Positions 13,172 through 25,861 of a DNA stretch of 64,000 bases are shown piece after piece. Source of the DNA: Myxococcaceae bacterium (GTDB taxonomy: Bacteria; Myxococcota; Myxococcia; Myxococcales; Myxococcaceae). The stretch spans positions 1 to 64,000 of the forward strand of contig JAEUJQ010000056.1 of the NCBI GenBank assembly GCA_016793095.1. The letters run 5' to 3'. The position numbers and the translations under genes were made by a program. The notes under the pieces are model-generated. The model was not told where the DNA came from. It was given only the letters and a program-made list of their open reading frames with translations, and searched no databases. Every line of letters starts with the position of its first letter. Position 1 is the stretch's first letter.

Positions 13172-14254
13172 CTACTGCTCGAGTACCAGCTTCTTCGCCT
13201 CGATGACGATCTCGTCGGTGCCCTGGTGCACGGCCACCCACGACGCGGTGTTCTCGGAGCGCGCCCACATCGCCCCGCCCTCGCCGATGCCGAGCTCGAG
13301 GAAGCCCTTCGGCTTGCCCTTCTGCGAGTAGTCGAGGCGCAGCGCCACCGTCGGCGCCTTGCCCGCGGGCAGCTCTCCTTTGCCGAGCACCTCGGTGACG
13401 ATGAGGCGTCCCCAGACCTTGTCGTGCCAGTTCTTCACCAGCTCGTCCGGTTTGTCCGGCGTCGCCGCGCGGGCCACCTTCGCCGTGCTGGGGATCTCGG
13501 CGTTCGTCTGAAGGAAGACCGCCTCCTTCCCGTCCGCGTTGACGGTGAAGCGGTCGAACTCGCTCTGCTTGAAGACATGCAGGCGGCGATCGACGAGCAC
13601 CTGTGACTGGGGATCGAAGTCGGCGAACAGGGAGCCTGACAGCAGGTAGACGTCTCCGCTGCGCTCGTCCTGCAGGTAGGTGCCGAAGATGCCCGGGAGC
13701 GTCTTCGCGACGCGATAGACGCGGGCGGTGCTGGCGACGATCAGCTCGAGCCGTCGATCGGTGCCGGCGAGGCCCAGCTCTGCCAGCTTCTCGTCGCTCA
13801 AGCTCCCCAGCGCGCGCGTCGCCTCGAGGGGCATGAACTTCGCCAGCGCGTTCTCGGCCCGCTCGTTCGCGAGCACCTCGCGCGTCGGCGGTGGCGGAGG
13901 CTTCGCAGGGGTGACCGCGACCTCGATGACGCCAGCGTCCACCGCTCCGCCGTCGGGCAAGAGGCCGCCATCGAGGGCGACGAGGGTGGTGCCGGGGCCA
14001 GCGTCGGCCGGCCCGGGCTCCTTGCCGGGGATCCACCCCGAGGTCAGCCACAGCTGCCCCTCGACGCGCTTCAACGTGAGGAACCGCTGGCCGTCTTCGT
14101 ACTTCAGCGACTCGAGCGACTGCTTCGAGGCCTCGAGCACCTTGATGGTCGTGCTGGACGAGGCCGACTCTTTCGGGCGTTGCCACGTGGCGTACGCGGC
14201 GATCAACCCGAGGCCGGCGAGAGCGCCCGTCATCGCGACGTTGCTGGCCTTCAC
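13172..14254 (-). CDS. DUF4340-like envelope protein of the Gld-type ABC operon
   Basis: 360 residues. One N-terminal membrane helix (MTGALAGLGLIAAYATW) followed by a presumably periplasmic domain with a Pro-rich segment (TPAKPPPPPTREVL) near residue 115 and a beta-rich repeat region (FLTLKRVEGQLWLTSG; RRLELIVASTARVYRVAKT; DVYLLSGSLFADFD) that fits the DUF4340 family usually found beside GldG-like proteins. GTG 14254 was chosen because AGGAGG lies 7 bases upstream and it overlaps the stop of the GldG-like gene by 4 bases. It is the last gene of the ABC operon. Its biochemical role is unknown. Confidence 0.78.
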   Translation of the reverse strand: MKASNVAMTGALAGLGLIAAYATWQRPKESASSSTTIKVLEASKQSLESLKYEDGQRFLTLKRVEGQLWLTSGWIPGKEPGPADAGPGTTLVALDGGLLPDGGAVDAGVIEVAVTPAKPPPPPTREVLANERAENALAKFMPLEATRALGSLSDEKLAELGLAGTDRRLELIVASTARVYRVAKTLPGIFGTYLQDERSGDVYLLSGSLFADFDPQSQVLVDRRLHVFKQSEFDRFTVNADGKEAVFLQTNAEIPSTAKVARAATPDKPDELVKNWHDKVWGRLIVTEVLGKGELPAGKAPTVALRLDYSQKGKPKGFLELGIGEGGAMWARSENTASWVAVHQGTDEIVIEAKKLVLEQ

Positions 14255-16095
14255 GACTTCACCTCCTGCTGCTTGCGGGGCCGGCTCGTGCGTCGGCGCA
14301 CCACGAAGCCCAACCCCAGCACCAGCACCGGCGCGAGGAAGGTGGTGCCGTAGAACCACACGCTGTCCTCCTTGCGGGTGCGCGTCATCGGCACGTCGAG
14401 CTCGCTGTTGGTGCTGCCCTGCAGCTGCTCCTCACCGAGCAGCCACTTGAGGCCGTCCACCACGAGGTACTGGTTGCCCTGGAGCAGCGGCAGCACCTCG
14501 TCGGCGATGGCGTCGGAGTCGGCCAGCACCAGCGCGCGCAGCTCGTCCTCGACCTTGTTGGTGGAGGCGCGACGGCTGACGGCCGCGAGCACACCCGAGG
14601 CCTGGCGGACCTCGGCCGGCGGATCATGCTCGAAGTTGTTGTTGGTGTCGTTCCAGCTCGAGGGCTGGGTGCGCAGGGCGAGGTCGATGACGAGGTCGGC
14701 CGGGTGCGTCTGCAGCTCGTTGACGGGGCCGGCGCCCACGAGCAGCACCGGCTGTTGGGAGCGCGAGAGGTACGTCACCGACGGGTGTGACGAGAAGGTG
14801 CGCGTGCCGATGTTGCGGCGGTCCGACGGGCTGGCCTGCGCGCGCATGCGGGCGAAGCTCTTGTCGTCGGTCAGCACCTCGGCCTTGAACGAGAGGCCGA
14901 GCGGCTGGAGCAGCTCGTCGAAGGGAACCGCGGCCTCGGGATCGATGGCGATGAAGAGCTTCCCGCCGCGCTTGCCGTAGGCCTCGAGCGCCTGCGCCTC
15001 GGGGGGCGTGAAGGCGCGCGTGGGGCCGATGACGAAGACGGCCGCGGCGTCGCGGGGTACGTCCTGGCCCAGGCCCTCGGCGGCCGACAGCGTGCGCACC
15101 TCGAAGTTCTGGTCCTGCAGGGTGCGCCAGAGGATGTCGATGGTGGCGCGCTGCTCTCCGCCCACGGGATCCTGCGTGCGCTCACCGTGGCCCGACGTCA
15201 TGTAGACGGTGCGCTTCGACTTCGCGATCTGCAGCACGCGCTTCTGCACCTCGACGTCGAGGCCCCGGAGCTGGGTGCGCGACTTCTCGGCCTCGGTGCC
15301 GAGGAAGATGGTCTCTTTGCGGCCGCCCTTCTTGAGCACCACGCTGCCGTTGTTGCTGACGCCGAGGTCCTTCGACTTCACCGGCTCGAGGGCCTGGTCG
15401 AGCAGCTGCACCTTGAGCATCGAGGAGCCTTCCTTCAGCTCGTCGAAGTAGGCCTGCACGTAGGTGGACACGTCCGACGCGGGCGGGAAGAAGAGGAACA
15501 CCTCGAGCGGCTCGTCGAGGGAGTTGATGAGCCGCGCCGTCGCTTCACCGGGCCGGGCGGTGCGGAAGTACGAGAAGTCGCGCTTGAGGTCGCGCTCGGT
15601 GACGACGTACTGGAGGGCGAACGCGAAGATGAGGACGAAGCCCAGGCCCAGGCCGGCGTTGGTGGCTTCCTGAACGCGGCCGATCTCCATCACCGGCGCC
15701 TTCGCCATCGCCGCGTACGAGAGCTCGACCAGCAGCGTGGGGATCAGCGAGAGCACCAGCACGCAGGGCACCAGCACGGTGACGGCGCCGGCGAGCTTCG
15801 GCCAGTCGGTCTCCAGCGTCTGCCCGGCCACCTTCGCCCAGAGGTCCGACTGCCAGACGTAGAGGCCCACCGAGAGCAGCGCCAGGGCGTGCAGCCCCAG
15901 CAGCGACCGCTCGATCTGCCCCGAGTTGGCGACGTTGACGCGGGTGAAGCGCAGGCCGGTGGCGAGCGCCATGAGCAGCGCGCCGCCGGCGGTGAAGACG
16001 GTGCGCGCGTCTCCGTCGACGATGCGCTCGCCGATCCACACCGAGAGCAGCCCGGCGAGGAGGAGCAGGGAGAGGATCCAGCTCTTCTTCAGCAT
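14251..16095 (-). CDS. GldG-like ABC-associated membrane protein
   Basis: 614 residues. Several N-terminal membrane helices (SWILSLLLLAGLLSVWIG, LLGLHALALLSVGLYVW, VTVLVPCVLVLSLIPTLLV, GLGFVLIFAFALQYV) precede a large extracytoplasmic domain of the GldG/ABC-auxiliary type (TVYMTSGHGERTQDP, LGQDVPRDAAAVFVIGPTR, AYGKRGGKLFIAIDPEA), and one C-terminal helix (TTFLAPVLVLGLGFVV) is followed by a basic tail. In Bacteroidota GldG works with GldA and GldF in gliding and secretion; in Myxococcota the same gene set is conserved but its substrate is not established. ATG 16095 has GGAGGT 5 bases upstream. It follows the permease by 3 bases and overlaps the DUF4340-like gene. Confidence 0.85.
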   Translation of the reverse strand: MLKKSWILSLLLLAGLLSVWIGERIVDGDARTVFTAGGALLMALATGLRFTRVNVANSGQIERSLLGLHALALLSVGLYVWQSDLWAKVAGQTLETDWPKLAGAVTVLVPCVLVLSLIPTLLVELSYAAMAKAPVMEIGRVQEATNAGLGLGFVLIFAFALQYVVTERDLKRDFSYFRTARPGEATARLINSLDEPLEVFLFFPPASDVSTYVQAYFDELKEGSSMLKVQLLDQALEPVKSKDLGVSNNGSVVLKKGGRKETIFLGTEAEKSRTQLRGLDVEVQKRVLQIAKSKRTVYMTSGHGERTQDPVGGEQRATIDILWRTLQDQNFEVRTLSAAEGLGQDVPRDAAAVFVIGPTRAFTPPEAQALEAYGKRGGKLFIAIDPEAAVPFDELLQPLGLSFKAEVLTDDKSFARMRAQASPSDRRNIGTRTFSSHPSVTYLSRSQQPVLLVGAGPVNELQTHPADLVIDLALRTQPSSWNDTNNNFEHDPPAEVRQASGVLAAVSRRASTNKVEDELRALVLADSDAIADEVLPLLQGNQYLVVDGLKWLLGEEQLQGSTNSELDVPMTRTRKEDSVWFYGTTFLAPVLVLGLGFVVRRRTSRPRKQQEVKS

Positions 16096-16098
16096 GGC

Positions 16099-16821
16099 TT
16101 ACCTCCACCTCCGCGCTTCCAGCACGCGGGTAGCGGCGAAGAGCGCGACGAAGGTGACGAGGCCGAAGTACACCGAGTGCTTCAGGTGCACGAGCCCCTG
16201 GCGGAACGGCTCGAAGTGCCCGAACCACGCGAGCCCCGTGACGATGTCGGTGAAGGGACGATCGACGACCTTGGCGACGATCCAGCACATGGTGAGCGCG
16301 ACGCACATGACGCCCGAGCTGACCGCCGCGACGACCTGGCTCTTCGTGAGGGCGCTGCCGAAGAGCCCGACGGCGAGGCTCGACGCGCCGACGAGCAGCA
16401 GGCCCAGGTAGCCCGAGAGCACGTGGCCGAGGGAGATCTTGCCGTACACCGCGACGAGGATCGGCATGTACGCCGTGCCCGCGTAGAAGAGGCAGAGGAA
16501 GGCCAGCGCGGCGAAGAACTTGCCGAGCACGATCTCGCGGTCGTGGACGGGCGACGAGTAGAGGAGCTGCACGGTGCCGGTCTGGCGCTCCTCGGCGATG
16601 AGGCGCATCGAGAGGAAGACGGCGCCGGCCATGCCGATGCCCGACGTCCAGAAGAAGAAGTCGGCGAGCACCTCGGAGGACTTCTTGGCGGTGCCGGCGA
16701 CGGCGAAGGCGTTGAAGGCCAGCCCGTCGAGGAAGAGCAGCACGGCGATGATGACGTACCCGCCCATGGAGCGCAGGTAGGCGCCGAGCTCGCGGCGGGC
16801 GATGAGCAGCACGTTGTTCAT
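16099..16821 (-). CDS. ABC-2 type permease (GldF-like)
   Basis: 240 residues with about six membrane helices (YVIIAVLLFLDGLAFNAF, IGMAGAVFLSMRLI, FFAALAFLCLFYAGTAYM, YLGLLLVGASSLAVGLF, VAAVSSGVMCVALTMCWIV, SVYFGLVTFVALFAATRV) and the cytoplasmic signature LIAEERQTGTVQLLYSSPV seen in ABC-2 permeases that pair with a Gld-like ATPase. ATG 16821 overlaps the ATPase stop by one base (TGATG) and has AAAGGA 6 bases upstream; GTG 16824 is an alternative. It should form the membrane channel with the ATPase at 16821 and act with the GldG-like protein downstream. Confidence 0.88.
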   Translation of the reverse strand: MNNVLLIARRELGAYLRSMGGYVIIAVLLFLDGLAFNAFAVAGTAKKSSEVLADFFFWTSGIGMAGAVFLSMRLIAEERQTGTVQLLYSSPVHDREIVLGKFFAALAFLCLFYAGTAYMPILVAVYGKISLGHVLSGYLGLLLVGASSLAVGLFGSALTKSQVVAAVSSGVMCVALTMCWIVAKVVDRPFTDIVTGLAWFGHFEPFRQGLVHLKHSVYFGLVTFVALFAATRVLEARRWR

Positions 16822-17753
16822 CACGCGTCCTTTCCGTGGGTGAGCTTCAGGAAGATGTTCTCGAGCCGGTGGGCAGCGCGATCGACGCGCAGCACGCCGA
16901 TGTCAGCCTGGACGAGCGCCTTGACGAGCTGGGGTCGCAGGTCGCTCTTCGCGTCGATGCGCAGCGAGACGTTCTGGCCGTCGAGCTTGATGAGGGTGAT
17001 GTCGATGACGCCGTCGAGCTTCTTGAGCAGCTCGATGACGGGCGCGGCGGTGCCGATGCAGTCGATCTCGATGGGGCCGCCCGAGCCCAGCTTGTCCGAC
17101 AGCTCGGCCTCGGTGCCCTGGGCGATCAGCTCGCCGCCCTGGACGACGAGGTAGCGGTCGCAGATCTGGCTGATCTCTCCGAGGATGTGGCTGGAGACGA
17201 GCACGGTGTGCTCGCCCTTGAGGCCCTTGATGACCTCGCGCATCTCGACGATCTGCACGGGGTCGAGGCCGCCGGTGGGCTCGTCGAGGATGAGCAGCTT
17301 GGGCTTGTGCACGAGCGCCTGGGCGAGGCCGACGCGCTGCCGGTAGCCGTGCGAGAGCGTGCTGATGGCGTCGTCGTGTTTGTCGGTGATGGCGGTCTTC
17401 TTCTCCGCGTCAGCGACGAAGGAGGCGACGTTGGCGACCGCGACGCCGCGCAGCTTCGCGACGAAGGCGAGGTACTCGCCGACGGTCATCTCGTCGTAGA
17501 CCGGCGGCGTGTCGGGCAGGTAGCCGATGCGTTTGCGGATCTCGTGCGGGTCGCGGGTGACGTCGAAGCCATCGACGATGACGCGCCCAGAGGTGGGCAG
17601 CAGCACGCAGCCCAGCACCTTGAGGGTGGTCGTCTTGCCCGCGCCGTTGAGGCCGAGGAAGCCCACCACCTCGCCGGAGTTGATGGTGAAGGACACGCCT
17701 TTGATGGCGGCGTGTTCACCGTAGTACTTGCTCAAGCCGTCGACCTGGATCAT
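16821..17753 (-). CDS. ABC transporter ATP-binding protein (GldA-like)
   Basis: 310 residues. Walker A GLNGAGKTTT near residue 35, Q-loop region RIGYLPDTPPVYDEMTVGEY, signature LSHGYRQRVGLAQAL, Walker B LLILDEPTGGLDP, and switch His in VLVSSHIL. The C-terminal 80 residues form the accessory beta domain found in ABC-2 exporters. First gene of a four-gene minus-strand operon (ATPase, permease, GldG-like, DUF4340-like), each overlapping or nearly so. No strong ribosome site precedes ATG 17753. The substrate is unknown. Confidence 0.93.
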   Translation of the reverse strand: MIQVDGLSKYYGEHAAIKGVSFTINSGEVVGFLGLNGAGKTTTLKVLGCVLLPTSGRVIVDGFDVTRDPHEIRKRIGYLPDTPPVYDEMTVGEYLAFVAKLRGVAVANVASFVADAEKKTAITDKHDDAISTLSHGYRQRVGLAQALVHKPKLLILDEPTGGLDPVQIVEMREVIKGLKGEHTVLVSSHILGEISQICDRYLVVQGGELIAQGTEAELSDKLGSGGPIEIDCIGTAAPVIELLKKLDGVIDITLIKLDGQNVSLRIDAKSDLRPQLVKALVQADIGVLRVDRAAHRLENIFLKLTHGKDA

Positions 17754-19986: not shown

Positions 19987-20163
19987 TCAGCAGATGTCGA
20001 AACAGGTCGCCTCATCCCCCACCGGCACGCAGGTGGGGTCGCGACAGGTCCCGTTGATGAGGGCGCAGTTCACCTGGTCCGTACACGCCAGGAGCACTGG
20101 AGGTGCCGACACGGACGGGTCGGTCGTCTTCATCGTCGGCGACCTGTAGGGACGCTTGGCCAT
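19987..20163 (-). CDS. 58-residue peptide with six cysteines, possible RiPP precursor
   Basis: A short gene below the usual ORF cutoff. ATG 20163 has GGAG 8 bases upstream inside the end of the giant gene and begins 4 bases after that gene's stop, so translation is probably coupled. The first 26 residues are basic and Pro/Ser/Thr-rich (MAKRPYRSPTMKTTD ... APPVLLA). The last 32 contain Cys27, 33, 40, 45, 54 and 58, spaced C-x5-C-x6-C-x4-C-x8-C-x3-C, with Cys as the final residue. This leader/core look, together with a PqqD-type protein in the same run of genes, suggests a modified or disulfide-rich peptide. No maturation enzyme is visible nearby. It could also be a small secreted or metal-binding protein. 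Confidence 0.7.
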   Translation of the reverse strand: MAKRPYRSPTMKTTDPSVSAPPVLLACTDQVNCALINGTCRDPTCVPVGDEATCFDIC

Positions 20164-20167
20164 GGGG

Positions 20168-23100
20168 CTATCTCCAAACATAGATGGTGTTGTTCCGCTC
20201 GTCAGCCAGGACGACGTCCGGCACGCCGTCGCCCGTGACGTCGGCAGCGGCGCATGACCGGCCGATCGAGTTGTTGGTGCTTCCCGATAGCGTGTTGCCG
20301 TCGATCCGGCTCTGCCAGAAGCGCGGCACCGAGGTCGAGATCGGGCTGTCGAACGGCGTGCCCGACTGCTGCCAGACGATCCACGCGGAGCTGTTCGTCG
20401 TCGCGTTGGTCCCAACGACCAGATCGGGCCGGGTGTCTCCGGTGTTCAGGTTTGCGACCCCGACCGCCGAGCCGAACGTGAGCGGACCGTCGATGGTGAA
20501 GCTCGCCGTCGCCGGCGCCCCCGTCGACGACAGATCGGCGTGCAGGTAGACGGCGCCACCGCCGGCCCGCGCGGGCCAGGTGACGACGAGATCCTGCGCG
20601 CTCCCGTTGAGGATGTTGATGCCTCCCACGACGAACGCGCTGAAGCCCGTCTGCACGTTGCCGTCCGTTCCGACACCCGGGGTCAGCGTCTGCAGTGCGC
20701 TCGTGTTCGGCGTGGCCGGCACGATGAGGTTCGAGGTGAAGAGCTGCATCCGATTGATGGTCGACGGGCCCAGCCCGATCGTGAAGTCGCTGCGACCGTC
20801 GCCGTCGAGATCGCCGACGCTCGCGATGCCGAACCGGTTGCGCCCGAAGTACCCGGTCGTCGTTGGCACCCCCGAGACGCCGCCTTCGACGACCCACGTC
20901 GCCGTCACGTTCGAGACCGGAATGTACGGCGCCATCGTCACCGGGTCCGTCGCGGTCCGGGCGGCCTGCCAGTCGGCGCGTGAACGGCCAGCGTAGATGA
21001 GGAGCCGGCCGTTGTTGCCGTTCGCGAAGGGCGCTGCGAGCGCGACCTCACCGAACCCGTCGCCGTTGAGGTCGGGGAGGATCTTGGTCGCGTTGCCGAT
21101 GCGGTACGAGTTGTCGAACCCACGGAACTCGATGAACGTGTTCACGTCGATCGTCGACGACGCAGACCCGAAGTAGAGGAACGCGCGACCCACCGGAACG
21201 GCGCTGTTCGGGAAGTTGGTCTGGCCGATGAGCAGGTCGGCCACCGGCGTCCCGGCGTCGGTGTCCACGTTGCCCTTCGCGGAGAAGTCCGAGCCGAAGC
21301 CAAAGCCACCGGCGTCGGGGTTGTTGATCACCGTGCACGCGGGGCTCACGCAGGTCGGCTGCGTCGTGAGACCGGGGCCACCGTAGTAGACGTACACAGC
21401 GCCGGTGATCAGGCTCGTGCTGGCTCCGACGACGAGGTCGGTGACCGCGTCGTTGTTGAGGCTCGACTCCGCCACCACCGCGTTGCCGAAGCTCGAGGCA
21501 GCCGGCCCATCGACCTTCAGCCGCGTCCAGGGGTTGTCCTTCACCACCGGGCCGGGGAACGAGGAGTAGTTGAAGACCTCGTCGCGCGCGCGCACGCCCA
21601 CGTAGTAGGTGTTCAGCGGCGGCAGCGTCAGCACCTCGGACATCTGAGTGCCGCTCGGTGCCCGCTCGGTCGCGTCGGCCGCCGATGCGCCGAAGTAGTC
21701 GTCGCTGGTCGCCATCGCGTTGTTGTTCGCGACGGAGCTCGTCGACCACTTGATGACGTAGCGCGCGACCGCGCCTGAGCTCGGCACACCCTGATCGTCG
21801 ACCGCGTCGTTTGCCCAGGCGACCGACGCCGTGGCGAAGCGCGCGTCGTGCACGCCGCCGTCGAGTGCTGACGGTGCCGACGGAGGAATGACGTCGACGG
21901 CCACCGGGCCCCGGTACACGTCCAGCGCGTTGCCGCCTTCGTCAGTCACCACCACCGCGAACTCACCGAGCGCGTTCTGCGCGAGGTTGACCGAAGACAG
22001 CGTGAAGGACTGCGGCGACATCGTGACGTTCTGAGCCGTGCCGGGGATCGGCGCGCCGCCGATGGTGAACGAGAGCGCGCCGTTGACCGCGCCAGTCACG
22101 CCGTTCACCGCGAAGTTGGCCTGGCCGCCGTTGGCGCCGTTGCCGTCGAGATCGGGGTAGTAGCCCGGCGTCGAGGTGCGGACGCGGAGGTTGTTCTGCG
22201 CCGCGACGAAGAAGACCGAGGCCGGAGGCGCAGAGGTGTCGGTGTTGATGCGGAGGCCCGCGTTCATCCCTCCGATGGTCGGCGCGACGAGATCGACGCT
22301 GAACGACGTCGGCATGGGGTTGTTCTGGATCGTCAACGACCACACCTCGCCGTCAGTCAGAGGCACGTTCGCAAACGAGACATCGCCGTTGGAGAGCGTG
22401 CCGGCGGGCGCGATGACGGGACCGCCAGGTGGCGCCGTTCGGGCCAGCGTGACGAGTTCGCCCAGGCGGCAGTTCGAGCTGTTCGCGTTGATGGTTGCCG
22501 TGCCCGAATTCATCCCCAAGCCCGGCACGTGGCTGCGGTTCAGCCAGGTCGTTGCCCCGCGCACGAAGGGGGGCTGACCGTTTGTCGCCGTCAGCGCGAT
22601 CTGGCAGCTGGTCGAAGAGACGTTCACGTTCGTGGCAGTCCGGCTGGTCGGGTTGCCTGCAGCGTCGGTGAGCGTGGCGGTGATCGTCTGCCCCATCCCG
22701 ATCGGGTAGGTCAGGACGGCGGTGTATCCACCCGCTTGCGTGAGGCTCCCCACGTCGCTGACCTGGGCACTCGAGCGGATGACGATGCTGTTGCCGTCGC
22801 CTCCCGTGACCATCGTGGCCGTGGTTGTCAGCTGCGTGGTGTTCGACATCGCGCCGCTGGCGGGTGCCGCGAGCGTGAAGGTCGGGGCGTCGAGATCTAT
22901 GCTCACGGTCCGGTTGACAGGTGTCGCCGAGTTGCCCGACGCGTCTCTGCAGGTCGCGGTCAGGCTCACCGCGCGGGTTCCCGAAACCGCGAAGCTCGCC
23001 TGCGCGACCGAGGAGGCGTTCGGTGTGACCTGCTGAGCTGCGGTCGACCCTTCAGCGATCCCTACCACCGCCACGTCCGCGCTGGTCTGCACCTGAGCCA

Positions 23101-25519
23101 CGAGCGAGCCAGCTGGGATGTCCATGAGGTTGAGTGTTCTGCCTGTCGTCGGAGCGGTGAAAGTGCAGCTCGGGACAGCGCGATCAACGCGAAGTTGCCT
23201 CGCCGCCGCCGCATTCGAGGTCGGGGTGTTCCGGTTGCCCACCGCGTCGGTAAGCTCGACGAATACGCTCAGATCCTGCTCAGCGGCGACGTTAGTGGTG
23301 AGGTCGACGTTGACCAGACCGGAAGGGTTGGCAAGCGCGGCCGAGTACGACGGCGAGCCGACCGTCATTCCGGTGAGGTTGCGAACGATCACCGAGTTCG
23401 CAGAACCGCATGTCGGGTCGACCGTGAAGCGCAAGCGCGGGTCTGCCGCTCCCAGCTCGGCGATGTTGAGTCGCCCGTCGCCCACGCCGCCGTCAGCGCC
23501 GACGTCCTGCGGCAGGGCCACGCCCGCAGCACTCACGCACGGCACCGTCACGTCGACAGTCAGAGGCAGGTGTGGCGACTCCGGCGGGGGGGAGCCGGCC
23601 CCGATCACCACGATCTTCATCTCGTAGCTTCCCTCTGGGAAGGTGAAGGCAGCGACGGGATTCGTGACGTTGGTGGCCAACACGAAGAAGCCGGCAGGGC
23701 CGGCGCATGGCGCCGCACCGACTCCGGCGGCCATTGCATCGTTTACGCAGACATCGACCCGGCCCATCGGCGGCAGAGGCGCCGTGAACGTCAGGGTCCG
23801 CTGAGCGCCGGGCGCGGTCGGATTCGAGTCATCAGCGGCCGTCAGAACGGCCGGGCCTGACACCGGCGCGACCGGGCTGGTGATCGTCGGCACGTTCGTG
23901 TTGACCTCCACGGCGCAACTGGTTGAGGTCACTGGCGTCGAGGCGCCAGGCAGGTTGTCGATCTCGGCTCTCAAGTCAAACATTGCCGTCGTCGTCCCGA
24001 CCGGCACCGAGAACCCGGGTGCAGTGCCTGCCACTTGAACGTTGTCCTTGTAGAGCCGCACAGGCTGGCTGGCGCAGTTTGAGCTGACCTGCAGGACGAC
24101 TGACAGCACGCCATTGACTCCAAGCCGGGACGCGAAGGCTGGGCAAGACGCCGGTTGTCCGCCGATGCTCAAGAACACGACCGAGCAGACGTTCGCCGGG
24201 AGCTGCACGTTGATGGTGTGCTCGCGCGTACCGCCGTCGGCGAGCGAGGTCGCCGACGAGCCACGGTTCCCCGCGGCATCGACGCACTCCGCACGGATGC
24301 TGTAGGCGCCGCTGTTCGGGAAGCTCACCATCACCGAGAACGTGCCGTTCATCACCGTGCCGGTCGGGCCGTCGGCGCCGTTGACGAAGAGCTGGCAGGC
24401 GCTGCCGTTGGGCGCACCGGTGACCGTCGTCGTGACCGTCGCGCTGGCGGTCGTGATGGTCGCCCCGTCGGCAGGAGCAGTGATGGTCACCGACGGCGGC
24501 TCGAAGTCCAGCGGGACCGTTCGCGTGCCATTGACCGCGGTGCAGAGATTTCCAACCGAGTCGAAGGCGCTCAGAACCACGTCGAGGTTCGAGGTTCCGG
24601 TTGCGGGCACGGTGAAATCAGCCGAGGCCATTCCCATCGAGAAGGTGATGGAGCGCGTCATGCCACCGGCTGCGAGTTCGGCCCGGCTGACCGAGCCAGA
24701 GTTCAGCTGCGCGGTCGCGCGGACCTGGTAACCCGCCGTCATCCGGTCGGCGTCGTCGAGCGGCCCACGAGGGGCAACCGAGGTGGTGTTCTCCACCGCA
24801 CACCCCGCCATGCGCTGAACCCGAATGCTCGGCGTACACGTCGGCGCGTTCGTCCCCCGCGTCACCGTCCCCGTCACCGAGAACGTGCCATCAGCCGTCG
24901 GCCCCGGCACCGTCACCGTCGCCGTCTCGTTCACGATCGGCGCGCTCGCCGGGCTCGACCCCGGCGCCGAGAACGTGGCCCCGCTCCCGTTCATCGTCGC
25001 CACCCGCACCTGCACCGCGGTCCCCGCCGGCAGCTCCGCCGCGTTCAGCGTTCCGTCCTGGTTCGCGTCCTGCGGGAACGTGCACGACGTGATCACCGGC
25101 GGCGGGGTCACCACGTTCCGCGCCGTCACGGTGATCGTCACCGGGTTGGCCGTCCCGGTGCAGTTCGCCTCCGCCACCGTCGCCCGCAGCGCGTTCTCGC
25201 CCGGCATCAACGTCACACCCGTGAACGTGGCGTTCGAGCCGTCCACCTGGCCGTCGCGCGAGCCGCCGAACTCCGTCTGCCCCGGCCCGCGGATCTCGAG
25301 CTTCGCGCTGCCGATCGTCACCGCCTCACCGCGCCGCGTGAGCGTCACCTGCATGTTCGACGTCGGATCCACCATCGCCCCATCCATGGGCACGGCGAAC
25401 GCCGCCGTCAGATCCGTGTTGTCGCAGCCGGGCGGGTTGGTGGGGCAGTTACAGCCCACCATCGCCATCCCCAGCGACGCCACCGCGATGCCCACCCGCA
25501 CCGAAGCCAACCGAGTCAT
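20168..25519 (-). CDS. Giant lipoprotein with Ig-like repeats and C-terminal FG-GAP propeller
   Basis: 1783 residues, the largest gene in the window. ATG 25519 (preceded by GGGAG at 8 bases) opens a signal peptide with lipobox MVGC (Cys23). The bulk is a chain of Ig-like/cadherin-like domains marked by recurring phrases such as PPSVTITAPADGATI, LDAPTFTLAAPASGA and TLTDAAGNPTSRT. A fibronectin-like domain near residue 1250 (AVARYVIKWSTSSV ... YYVGVRARDE) precedes about four FG-GAP/integrin-alpha-like repeats (LNGDGFGEVALAAPF, DLDGDGRSDFTIGLG, DVTGDGVPDVVLADE) with calcium-binding-like D-x-D-G-D motifs. It is therefore a surface adhesin or recognition protein by architecture. It lies between PqqD-like and six-cysteine peptide genes, and parts of it are less GC-biased than the flanks. 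Confidence 0.88.
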   Translation of the reverse strand: MTRLASVRVGIAVASLGMAMVGCNCPTNPPGCDNTDLTAAFAVPMDGAMVDPTSNMQVTLTRRGEAVTIGSAKLEIRGPGQTEFGGSRDGQVDGSNATFTGVTLMPGENALRATVAEANCTGTANPVTITVTARNVVTPPPVITSCTFPQDANQDGTLNAAELPAGTAVQVRVATMNGSGATFSAPGSSPASAPIVNETATVTVPGPTADGTFSVTGTVTRGTNAPTCTPSIRVQRMAGCAVENTTSVAPRGPLDDADRMTAGYQVRATAQLNSGSVSRAELAAGGMTRSITFSMGMASADFTVPATGTSNLDVVLSAFDSVGNLCTAVNGTRTVPLDFEPPSVTITAPADGATITTASATVTTTVTGAPNGSACQLFVNGADGPTGTVMNGTFSVMVSFPNSGAYSIRAECVDAAGNRGSSATSLADGGTREHTINVQLPANVCSVVFLSIGGQPASCPAFASRLGVNGVLSVVLQVSSNCASQPVRLYKDNVQVAGTAPGFSVPVGTTTAMFDLRAEIDNLPGASTPVTSTSCAVEVNTNVPTITSPVAPVSGPAVLTAADDSNPTAPGAQRTLTFTAPLPPMGRVDVCVNDAMAAGVGAAPCAGPAGFFVLATNVTNPVAAFTFPEGSYEMKIVVIGAGSPPPESPHLPLTVDVTVPCVSAAGVALPQDVGADGGVGDGRLNIAELGAADPRLRFTVDPTCGSANSVIVRNLTGMTVGSPSYSAALANPSGLVNVDLTTNVAAEQDLSVFVELTDAVGNRNTPTSNAAAARQLRVDRAVPSCTFTAPTTGRTLNLMDIPAGSLVAQVQTSADVAVVGIAEGSTAAQQVTPNASSVAQASFAVSGTRAVSLTATCRDASGNSATPVNRTVSIDLDAPTFTLAAPASGAMSNTTQLTTTATMVTGGDGNSIVIRSSAQVSDVGSLTQAGGYTAVLTYPIGMGQTITATLTDAAGNPTSRTATNVNVSSTSCQIALTATNGQPPFVRGATTWLNRSHVPGLGMNSGTATINANSSNCRLGELVTLARTAPPGGPVIAPAGTLSNGDVSFANVPLTDGEVWSLTIQNNPMPTSFSVDLVAPTIGGMNAGLRINTDTSAPPASVFFVAAQNNLRVRTSTPGYYPDLDGNGANGGQANFAVNGVTGAVNGALSFTIGGAPIPGTAQNVTMSPQSFTLSSVNLAQNALGEFAVVVTDEGGNALDVYRGPVAVDVIPPSAPSALDGGVHDARFATASVAWANDAVDDQGVPSSGAVARYVIKWSTSSVANNNAMATSDDYFGASAADATERAPSGTQMSEVLTLPPLNTYYVGVRARDEVFNYSSFPGPVVKDNPWTRLKVDGPAASSFGNAVVAESSLNNDAVTDLVVGASTSLITGAVYVYYGGPGLTTQPTCVSPACTVINNPDAGGFGFGSDFSAKGNVDTDAGTPVADLLIGQTNFPNSAVPVGRAFLYFGSASSTIDVNTFIEFRGFDNSYRIGNATKILPDLNGDGFGEVALAAPFANGNNGRLLIYAGRSRADWQAARTATDPVTMAPYIPVSNVTATWVVEGGVSGVPTTTGYFGRNRFGIASVGDLDGDGRSDFTIGLGPSTINRMQLFTSNLIVPATPNTSALQTLTPGVGTDGNVQTGFSAFVVGGINILNGSAQDLVVTWPARAGGGAVYLHADLSSTGAPATASFTIDGPLTFGSAVGVANLNTGDTRPDLVVGTNATTNSSAWIVWQQSGTPFDSPISTSVPRFWQSRIDGNTLSGSTNNSIGRSCAAADVTGDGVPDVVLADERNNTIYVWR

Positions 25520-25558
25520 ACGCACGTCTCCCTTGGTGCCCACCGGCTGCTGGCCAAT

Positions 25559-25861
25559 TCAGTCCAGCGTCAGCACCTGTTTCCCTAACAGCATCTCGAC
25601 GAACTGCGTGGTGTCCTGCTCTGCAACCTCGCGGGACACCTCGAACTCTTCCACCAGCGCCTCCACGATGGCGCCCAGCGTACGCTGCCCATCCACCAGC
25701 TCGATGATGCGCTCACCGACCTCCGACACCGAGCCGTCGTTCGCCTCGAAGGTGTGCAACCGATCGTCCGGAGTCGCCGCCATGTACCGCCCACCCACGC
25801 GCTGCACCGCCGTCTCCGGGTTCACTCGGACGACCGTCTGCAGGGTGAGGCCAGGCATCAC
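25559..25861 (-). CDS. PqqD-family protein (RiPP recognition element)
   Basis: 100 residues with the PqqD fold: an N-terminal beta-wing (VVRVNPETAVQRVGGRYMA) and the helical signature ERIIELVDGQRTLGAIVEAL followed by FVEMLLGKQVLTLD. Stand-alone PqqD proteins bind the leader of a ribosomal peptide and present it to a modifying enzyme, usually a radical SAM protein. None is encoded here, so the partner may be elsewhere or the protein may have another role. GTG 25861 has GGGAG 8 bases upstream; ATG 25858 is an alternative. It heads the run leading into the giant lipoprotein gene 39 bases downstream. Confidence 0.82.
   Translation of the reverse strand: MMPGLTLQTVVRVNPETAVQRVGGRYMAATPDDRLHTFEANDGSVSEVGERIIELVDGQRTLGAIVEALVEEFEVSREVAEQDTTQFVEMLLGKQVLTLD

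Follow-up and report, generated by a model that had tools for sequence, protein, structure and literature searches.

A conserved gene trio of Myxococcota, probably the core of a peptide-tailoring system paired with a giant integrin-like lipoprotein

The stretch of DNA analysed here (the window) comprises 64,000 nucleotides from a Myxococcaceae bacterium (assembly GCA_016793095.1, contig JAEUJQ010000056.1). It is contig C82 of genome G000 (8.8 Mb), G, C and L numbers being our own labels for genomes, contigs and loci, and its near relatives are metagenome-assembled genomes (MAGs) labelled Archangium, Myxococcus or Myxococcales. On its minus strand, genes for a PqqD-family protein, a giant lipoprotein and a cysteine-rich peptide form one operon-like run. 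An initial annotation, made from the sequence alone, had proposed that the peptide may be a ribosomally synthesised and post-translationally modified peptide (RiPP) or a disulfide-rich product, recognised by the PqqD protein and having the giant protein as its surface partner or target. The features of the run are as follows.

25559..25858, minus strand: PqqD-family discrete RiPP recognition element (RRE), 99 residues (Pfam PqqD, E 7.4e-13; structure model)
20168..25519, minus strand: giant lipoprotein, 1783 residues, with lipobox Cys23, Ig-like repeats and a C-terminal FG-GAP propeller (Pfam FG-GAP, E 1e-11)
20171..21700, minus strand: predicted integrin-alpha-like FG-GAP beta-propeller, the C-terminal 510 residues of the giant (AlphaFold and structural matches)
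20172..20175, minus strand: GGAG ribosome-binding site of the peptide, within the last codons of the giant gene (sequence)
19987..20163, minus strand: Cys-rich precursor peptide with YxxP leader, 58 residues, MAKRPYRSPTMKTTDPSVSAPPVLLACTDQVNCALINGTCRDPTCVPVGDEATCFDIC (position and frame kept in 33/33 loci)
20137..20148, minus strand: Y-R-S-P leader motif (YxxP), expected to contact the RRE (alignment; role of the motif taken from PMC13381572)
19990..20085, minus strand: Cys-rich C-terminal part of the peptide with six Cys, the likely core (sequence, Cys counts)

The pqqD gene starts at ATG 25858, with GTG 25861 as an alternative start. The best start of the giant gene is ATG 25519, 39 nucleotides past the pqqD stop, and its lipobox reads MVGC. 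The peptide starts at ATG 20163, 4 nucleotides past the stop codon of the giant gene. A check of the open reading frames (ORFs) agrees with the initial annotation on the position and strand of all three genes, on the ribosome site inside the giant gene, and on the six-cysteine spacing of the peptide (C-x5-C-x6-C-x4-C-x8-C-x3-C).

The trio is conserved in myxobacteria and their relatives across Myxococcota. In a survey of 59 genomes of the family, for which approximately 15–18 kb was fetched around each PqqD match, PqqD is present in 36, and the order at the locus is PqqD, giant (mostly 1760–2340 residues) and short peptide. All 33 family loci with a complete giant, the only ones counted, contain a small ORF with [Y/W]xxP that starts between -16 and +66 nucleotides from the giant stop. 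The same rule is satisfied by 6 of the 296 other genes in those loci, none of which resembles these peptides. Outside the family, and independently of the 33, the trio is found in L101, L103, L106-L109, L111, L113-L115 and L118-L120, with giants of roughly 1480–3024 residues and often downstream of or near etfBA. Loci L104, L105, L110, L112, L116 and L117 were left out, since they end in or soon after the giant or have no clear giant. A PqqD profile run on 195 genomes of the phylum matches 103 of them, partly via a second PqqD type, that of the type II cassette taken up further on. The trio locus mostly keeps fixed chromosomal neighbours, having ctaB or etfBA upstream, and the giant, searched for with its full length as query, is missing in all seven PqqD-lacking genomes tested. 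The initial annotation had held that homologous loci without the PqqD gene or the peptide frame would speak against it; in the homologous loci, the PqqD gene, the giant and the peptide frame are all retained.

The giant diverges faster than the neighbouring genes. Its identity to most members of its own genus is only about 38–45%, compared with 75–99% for PqqD and 77–92% for the nearby ABC genes. The C-terminal 510 residues were modelled by AlphaFold (predicted local distance difference test (pLDDT) 78.2, predicted template modelling score 0.82), and the predicted propeller has its best matches in integrin alpha headpieces (Z 33.3, 360 residues, 3.1 Å). The giant and the peptide diverge together: once PqqD is controlled for, the identity of the giant still correlates with that of the peptide core (partial r 0.47, 0/999 permutations), a figure weakened by shared ancestry. 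No part of the giant stands out as coupled to the peptide when its segments are compared, and the C-terminal propeller was on this ground set aside as the specific partner segment.

It could be argued that the three genes are chance neighbours, co-transcribed but functionally unrelated, given that no experiment links them and that the giant is far larger than the proteins usual in RiPP clusters. The linkage strongly disfavours such an explanation: all 33 family loci, and no fewer than a dozen loci from other families of the phylum, preserve the gene order. The joint absence and joint divergence also speak against it, and we regard it as very unlikely. Being lost together and diverging together also supports the giant as the partner of the peptide, as had been suggested.

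The assignment of the PqqD protein as an RRE is borne out by its relatives. One of these belongs to the system of the linear polyphosphorylated peptides (LPP), a kind of RiPP that Popov et al. (2026; PMC13381572) described in Bacillota. Among solved structures, the window protein is closest in sequence to TbiB1 with a lasso leader (E 2.9e-7) and LppB of the LPP system (E 0.0015). The AlphaFold model (pLDDT 87.7) matches best the leader-bound lasso RREs TbiB1 and TfuB1 (5v1u/6jx3; Z 12.3, 1.7 Å, VIA-align), and the Pfam match and the model both predict the winged-helix fold with a leader-binding cleft. LppB D70 and F74 align with D82 and F86 of the window protein, both nearly invariant. In LppB, D70 bonds the leader Tyr and N33 fixes the leader proline (PMC13381572). 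The genome encodes another PqqD-domain protein (164 residues; L100:6890-9799, on G000:C8), followed by an ATP-grasp protein and a pyridoxal phosphate (PLP) decarboxylase. It was considered as a partner and rejected, because it sits in this separate cluster.

As the closest RRE relatives are lasso B1 proteins, the PqqD protein could itself be the B1 protein of a lasso-peptide pathway whose B2 protease and cyclase lie elsewhere. The trio shares the RRE fold and the leader motif with the lasso B1 systems (TbiB1, TfuB1/FusB1, paeninodin), and the YxxP leader would fit. However, the B2-type family Transglut_core3 appears in genome G000 only at sub-threshold level (E 0.006, below the Pfam cut-off), on which account lasso membership was rejected. 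No Asn-synthetase-like cyclase was noticed in any locus, no genome-wide cyclase search having been made. Furthermore, the cores, which range from 0 to 8 Cys, have no lasso pattern, since neither a Thr at -2 nor a ring acid is conserved. A lasso pathway is thus highly improbable.

The peptide has no match to any Pfam, NCBIfam or PHROG family. Its conserved feature, which the initial annotation overlooked, is the leader motif K-x-x-Y-x-x-P-x-[V/L/M], seen in an alignment of the family peptides and represented in the window by KRPYRSPTM. The frame is under purifying selection, the nonsynonymous rate being lower than the synonymous rate (dN < dS) in nearly all alignable pairs (for example 0.010/0.252 and 0.120/1.067). 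The YxxP leader and the strict linkage support the earlier suggestion that the peptide is a likely substrate of PqqD. The six cysteines, taken earlier as defining the peptide, appear instead to be a lineage trait. In the family peptides there are 2, 4, 6 or 8 Cys according to lineage, and the spacing varies as well, which rules out the Cys pattern as a signature; 32 of the 33 have an even count in the C-terminal part. The core type in the window's genus is VLLAC[T/S]-x-C-..-CC-..-C, while several other genera have RSEKILVPDLFxPSC..C.

Outside the window's genus, many loci of the family have two further genes after the peptide, one for an HprK-like P-loop protein and one for an S26-like protein that is often a fusion with GNAT. 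In Corallococcus-type loci, the HprK-like and then the S26(-GNAT) genes lie directly downstream of the peptide. The S26 set keeps the Ser in GxS[L/M]xP, the His and the Asp/Glu, and resembles NiSOD-maturation and archaeal signal peptidases; the HprK-like match to TIGR04352 is far below cut-off. The initial annotation saw no maturase in view, which holds for the window, but the relatives show proteins that are probably involved. Its expectation that enzymes are encoded elsewhere in the genome is supported by homologues on other contigs of G000, HprK-like on C47 (250 residues) and S26-like on C66 (140 residues). In other members of the window's genus (L080, L088), the HprK-like gene that corresponds to the one on C47 has an MBL exonuclease gene and panD alongside. 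In genome G018 (L082) the MBL exonuclease and PanD genes lie between the trio and HprK, and this arrangement suggests that a rearrangement parted HprK from the trio. Across the 59 genomes, PqqD co-occurs with S26 at p 2e-5 (uncorrected for kinship), and either PqqD type co-occurs with S26 at p 4e-10 and with HprK at p 6e-8. It is worth adding that a Myxococcus S26-GNAT gene (L086:8682-9995) stands at the ancestral place, though PqqD, giant, peptide and HprK are gone there.

Alternatively, the peptide might be secreted unmodified, as a disulfide-rich peptide or a lipopeptide, with PqqD regulating or chaperoning it. The VLLAC sequence resembles a lipobox, similar motifs (LLAC/LLGC/LTGC) occur in the window's genus and some relatives, the Cys counts are even, and RiPP-lipoprotein hybrids exist (PMC12636315). 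Yet most lineages lack the lipobox-like motif (having LFxPS, LTITC or LFDC), the hydrophobic signal segment is no longer than about five residues, and the strict YxxP motif and the HprK/S26 linkage are left unexplained. This explanation is accordingly improbable.

The initial annotation had advised a search for co-occurring maturases. Such genes are present in some other families of the phylum, and no radical S-adenosylmethionine (SAM) gene was found near any Myxococcaceae locus. In L107, L111, L113, L114 and L119 a radical SAM gene lies downstream of the peptide, and the peptides are Cys-free with YG[G/A/P][F/Y] near the C-terminus. Locus L108 has a similar core (YQGF) and no radical SAM gene in view, while in L042 and L106 a different type of radical SAM gene accompanies two-Cys peptides. 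The core type thus changes with the enzyme set, and this is good evidence for the peptide as the substrate. The S26-like proteins at L107:+6860, L108:+5066 and L113:+9027 (relative to the PqqD match) have the catalytic Ser replaced by Cys; that of L108 is fused to an HprK-like domain, and L107 and L113 are loci with radical SAM genes.

These genes raise the question of whether the PqqD-bound peptide of the window is modified by a trans-encoded radical SAM/SPASM enzyme, giving thioether or C-C crosslinks (a sacti-/ranthipeptide or cyclophane-like product), with HprK and S26 serving other substrates. The radical SAM genes in the five cassettes and the other class in L042 and L106 favour this, genome G000 encodes four SPASM-domain proteins, and Cys-rich cores would suit thioether chemistry. 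On the other hand, the Cys-rich cores accompany the HprK/S26 loci and the YGx[F/Y]-type radical SAM genes accompany Cys-free cores, none of the four SPASM proteins is tied to this system, and Myxococcaceae loci have no such gene nearby. We therefore consider radical SAM chemistry unlikely for the window peptide.

A second (type II) cassette lies beside miaA in Myxococcus and other genera (L087:3668-9035, L093, L094 and L096; looser in L097). Its order is S26, PqqD, a 183-residue lipoprotein, a PQQ-type (pyrroloquinoline quinone) propeller protein of about 1036 residues, a YxxP peptide and an HprK-like kinase. The C-terminal part of its peptide is nearly invariant (YxPPAILWEQPFVALAQxSxC.., AILWEQPFVALAQ). 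A YxxP peptide and a propeller protein thus occur together in two cassettes, which supports a working link between peptide and propeller. One form of such a link would be a small cofactor that is made from the peptide and used by the propeller protein, in the way that quinoproteins use PQQ derived from PqqA. The peptide, RRE, protease and sometimes radical SAM genes do adjoin a beta-propeller protein, PQQ-like in the type II case. However, a peptide-derived cofactor needs fixed donor residues, and the C-terminal part of the trio peptide has no residue conserved across lineages; nor are FG-GAP propellers known redox enzymes. There is thus little to recommend the cofactor proposal.

Taking the evidence together, we propose that these genes form the core of a RiPP-type system, similar in its workings to the LPP pathway, whose product acts with the giant, and would give this a probability of roughly two in three. 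The PqqD protein, as a discrete RRE, would bind the YxxP leader of the 58-residue peptide and present the peptide to trans-encoded enzymes. The HprK-like kinase (G000:C47) would phosphorylate Ser/Thr in the C-terminal part, and the small soluble S26/archaeal-type signal-peptidase-like protein (G000:C66) would remove the leader. In Myxococcaceae the product may end as a disulfide-paired peptide, as the even Cys number there suggests. It would be exported and act with the giant integrin-like lipoprotein as a ligand, a cap or a displayed part.

Several points weigh against this proposal. In the genus of the window itself, HprK and S26 are unlinked to the trio, and the G000 S26 protein was identified by 45% identity over 140 residues, with no support from synteny. 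Since both proteins also serve the family's type II cassette, the co-occurrence is confounded; in addition, the Fisher and permutation tests ignore the shared ancestry of the sequences and so overstate independence. The position of LppB N33 is occupied by Ser in most of these PqqD proteins. The peptide has no visible border between leader and core, its core has no strictly invariant Ser/Thr, and the even parity of cysteines is lost outside the family (1 or 3 in L108, L115 and L118). No signal sequence was found in the peptide and no conserved exporter in the cassette, although the product would have to reach a surface lipoprotein.

Two transporters were considered as exporters. An ABC transporter operon (ATPase, permease and ABC_transp_aux, like GldA/F/G) at 14251-17753 of the window, minus strand, was rejected because no loci outside the window's genus have it next to the trio. 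An EamA transporter near the peptide in 25 loci is of drug/metabolite type, and is hence not claimed.

The manner in which giant and peptide vary allows a further, tentative proposal. In the sister MAGs L044 and L045, PqqD is 99% and the flanks are 90–98% identical, and yet the giant from residue ~270 onwards and the whole peptide have no nucleotide similarity. The pattern looks like the exchange of a linked giant-peptide allele, both genomes being MAGs. Because the two differ in giant and peptide amid near-identical flanks and PqqD, it is conceivable, though rather doubtful, that the giant and the RRE-matured peptide are a polymorphic recognition pair (an adhesin or receptor and its own tailored ligand), swapped between strains as a linked allele. 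If so, Myxococcota would have a system for self-recognition or adhesion in which a RiPP serves as ligand.

Among known systems, SynChlorMet (NCBIfam TIGR04248-04251) and the PQQ/mycofactocin-type radical SAM systems resemble the loci L042, L106, L107, L111 and L113 in combining HprK-like, PqqD and radical SAM proteins. They differ in that the scores are far below the SynChlorMet family cut-offs, and in that SPASM radical SAM proteins are absent from the Myxococcaceae loci and present in other families of the phylum. To our knowledge, a giant lipoprotein is not part of either kind of cassette. The giant itself is like the integrin-alpha/VCBS FG-GAP propeller proteins, its C-terminal 510 residues being predicted to fold as an integrin alpha headpiece. 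Unlike integrins, it is a bacterial lipoprotein with Ig-like repeats, and we know of no RiPP link for such propeller proteins. No description of this gene set in myxobacteria was found in open-licence papers. The trio, with the presumed kinase and peptidase genes beside it in relatives and elsewhere in this genome, suggests a tailored peptide of a kind not described before, whose partner is a surface protein that changes fast. If the proposal is correct, the social and predatory bacteria of a whole phylum possess a RiPP system that is anchored in the chromosome and coupled to a giant surface protein resembling integrin. As the linkage to this one protein is constant, gene deletions could test what the system does. 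On a common scaffold, Cys-paired cores (at HprK/S26 loci) and YGx[F/Y] cores (at radical SAM loci) replace each other naturally, which would also allow RRE-guided chemistries to be compared.

The closest comparison is with LPP. There, a kinase adds several phosphates to core Ser3, and the S26-like LppS, which keeps Ser, His and Asp, cuts the leader with RRE help; LPPs are patchy in distribution, and the functions of LPP and paeninodin are unknown (PMC13381572). Differences from LPP are clear. A giant FG-GAP lipoprotein always lies between RRE and peptide, and the part of the LPP description used here mentions no giant. The phylum is Myxococcota, the cores are often Cys-rich, GNAT is fused to S26 in many cases, and some lineages have radical SAM genes. 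In the window's genus, the kinase and peptidase genes lie apart from the trio, and the locus has mostly fixed chromosomal neighbours, unlike the patchy LPPs. The gene lists of the trio loci contain no nucleoside triphosphate (NTP) transferase or MsbA-like exporter, and as neither was seen the trio is not filed as LPP. As regards likeness, an RRE gene with a YxxP precursor is found in 33/33 family loci, the window version YRSPTM ending in M and the giant lying between the two genes. The trio and LPP share a discrete PqqD-type RRE and a YxxPx[V/L] precursor with variable C-terminus; going by the relatives, an HprK-like kinase and a Ser-His-Asp S26 leader peptidase may also be common to both. The LPP motif YxxPxVLxHQxIxFETxxS resembles YxxPxVxSExILVPDLFxxS of one myxobacterial group. 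By analogy, the trio system probably works like LPP, and if this is true, LPP-like phosphopeptide chemistry reaches beyond Bacillota, with a testable partner.

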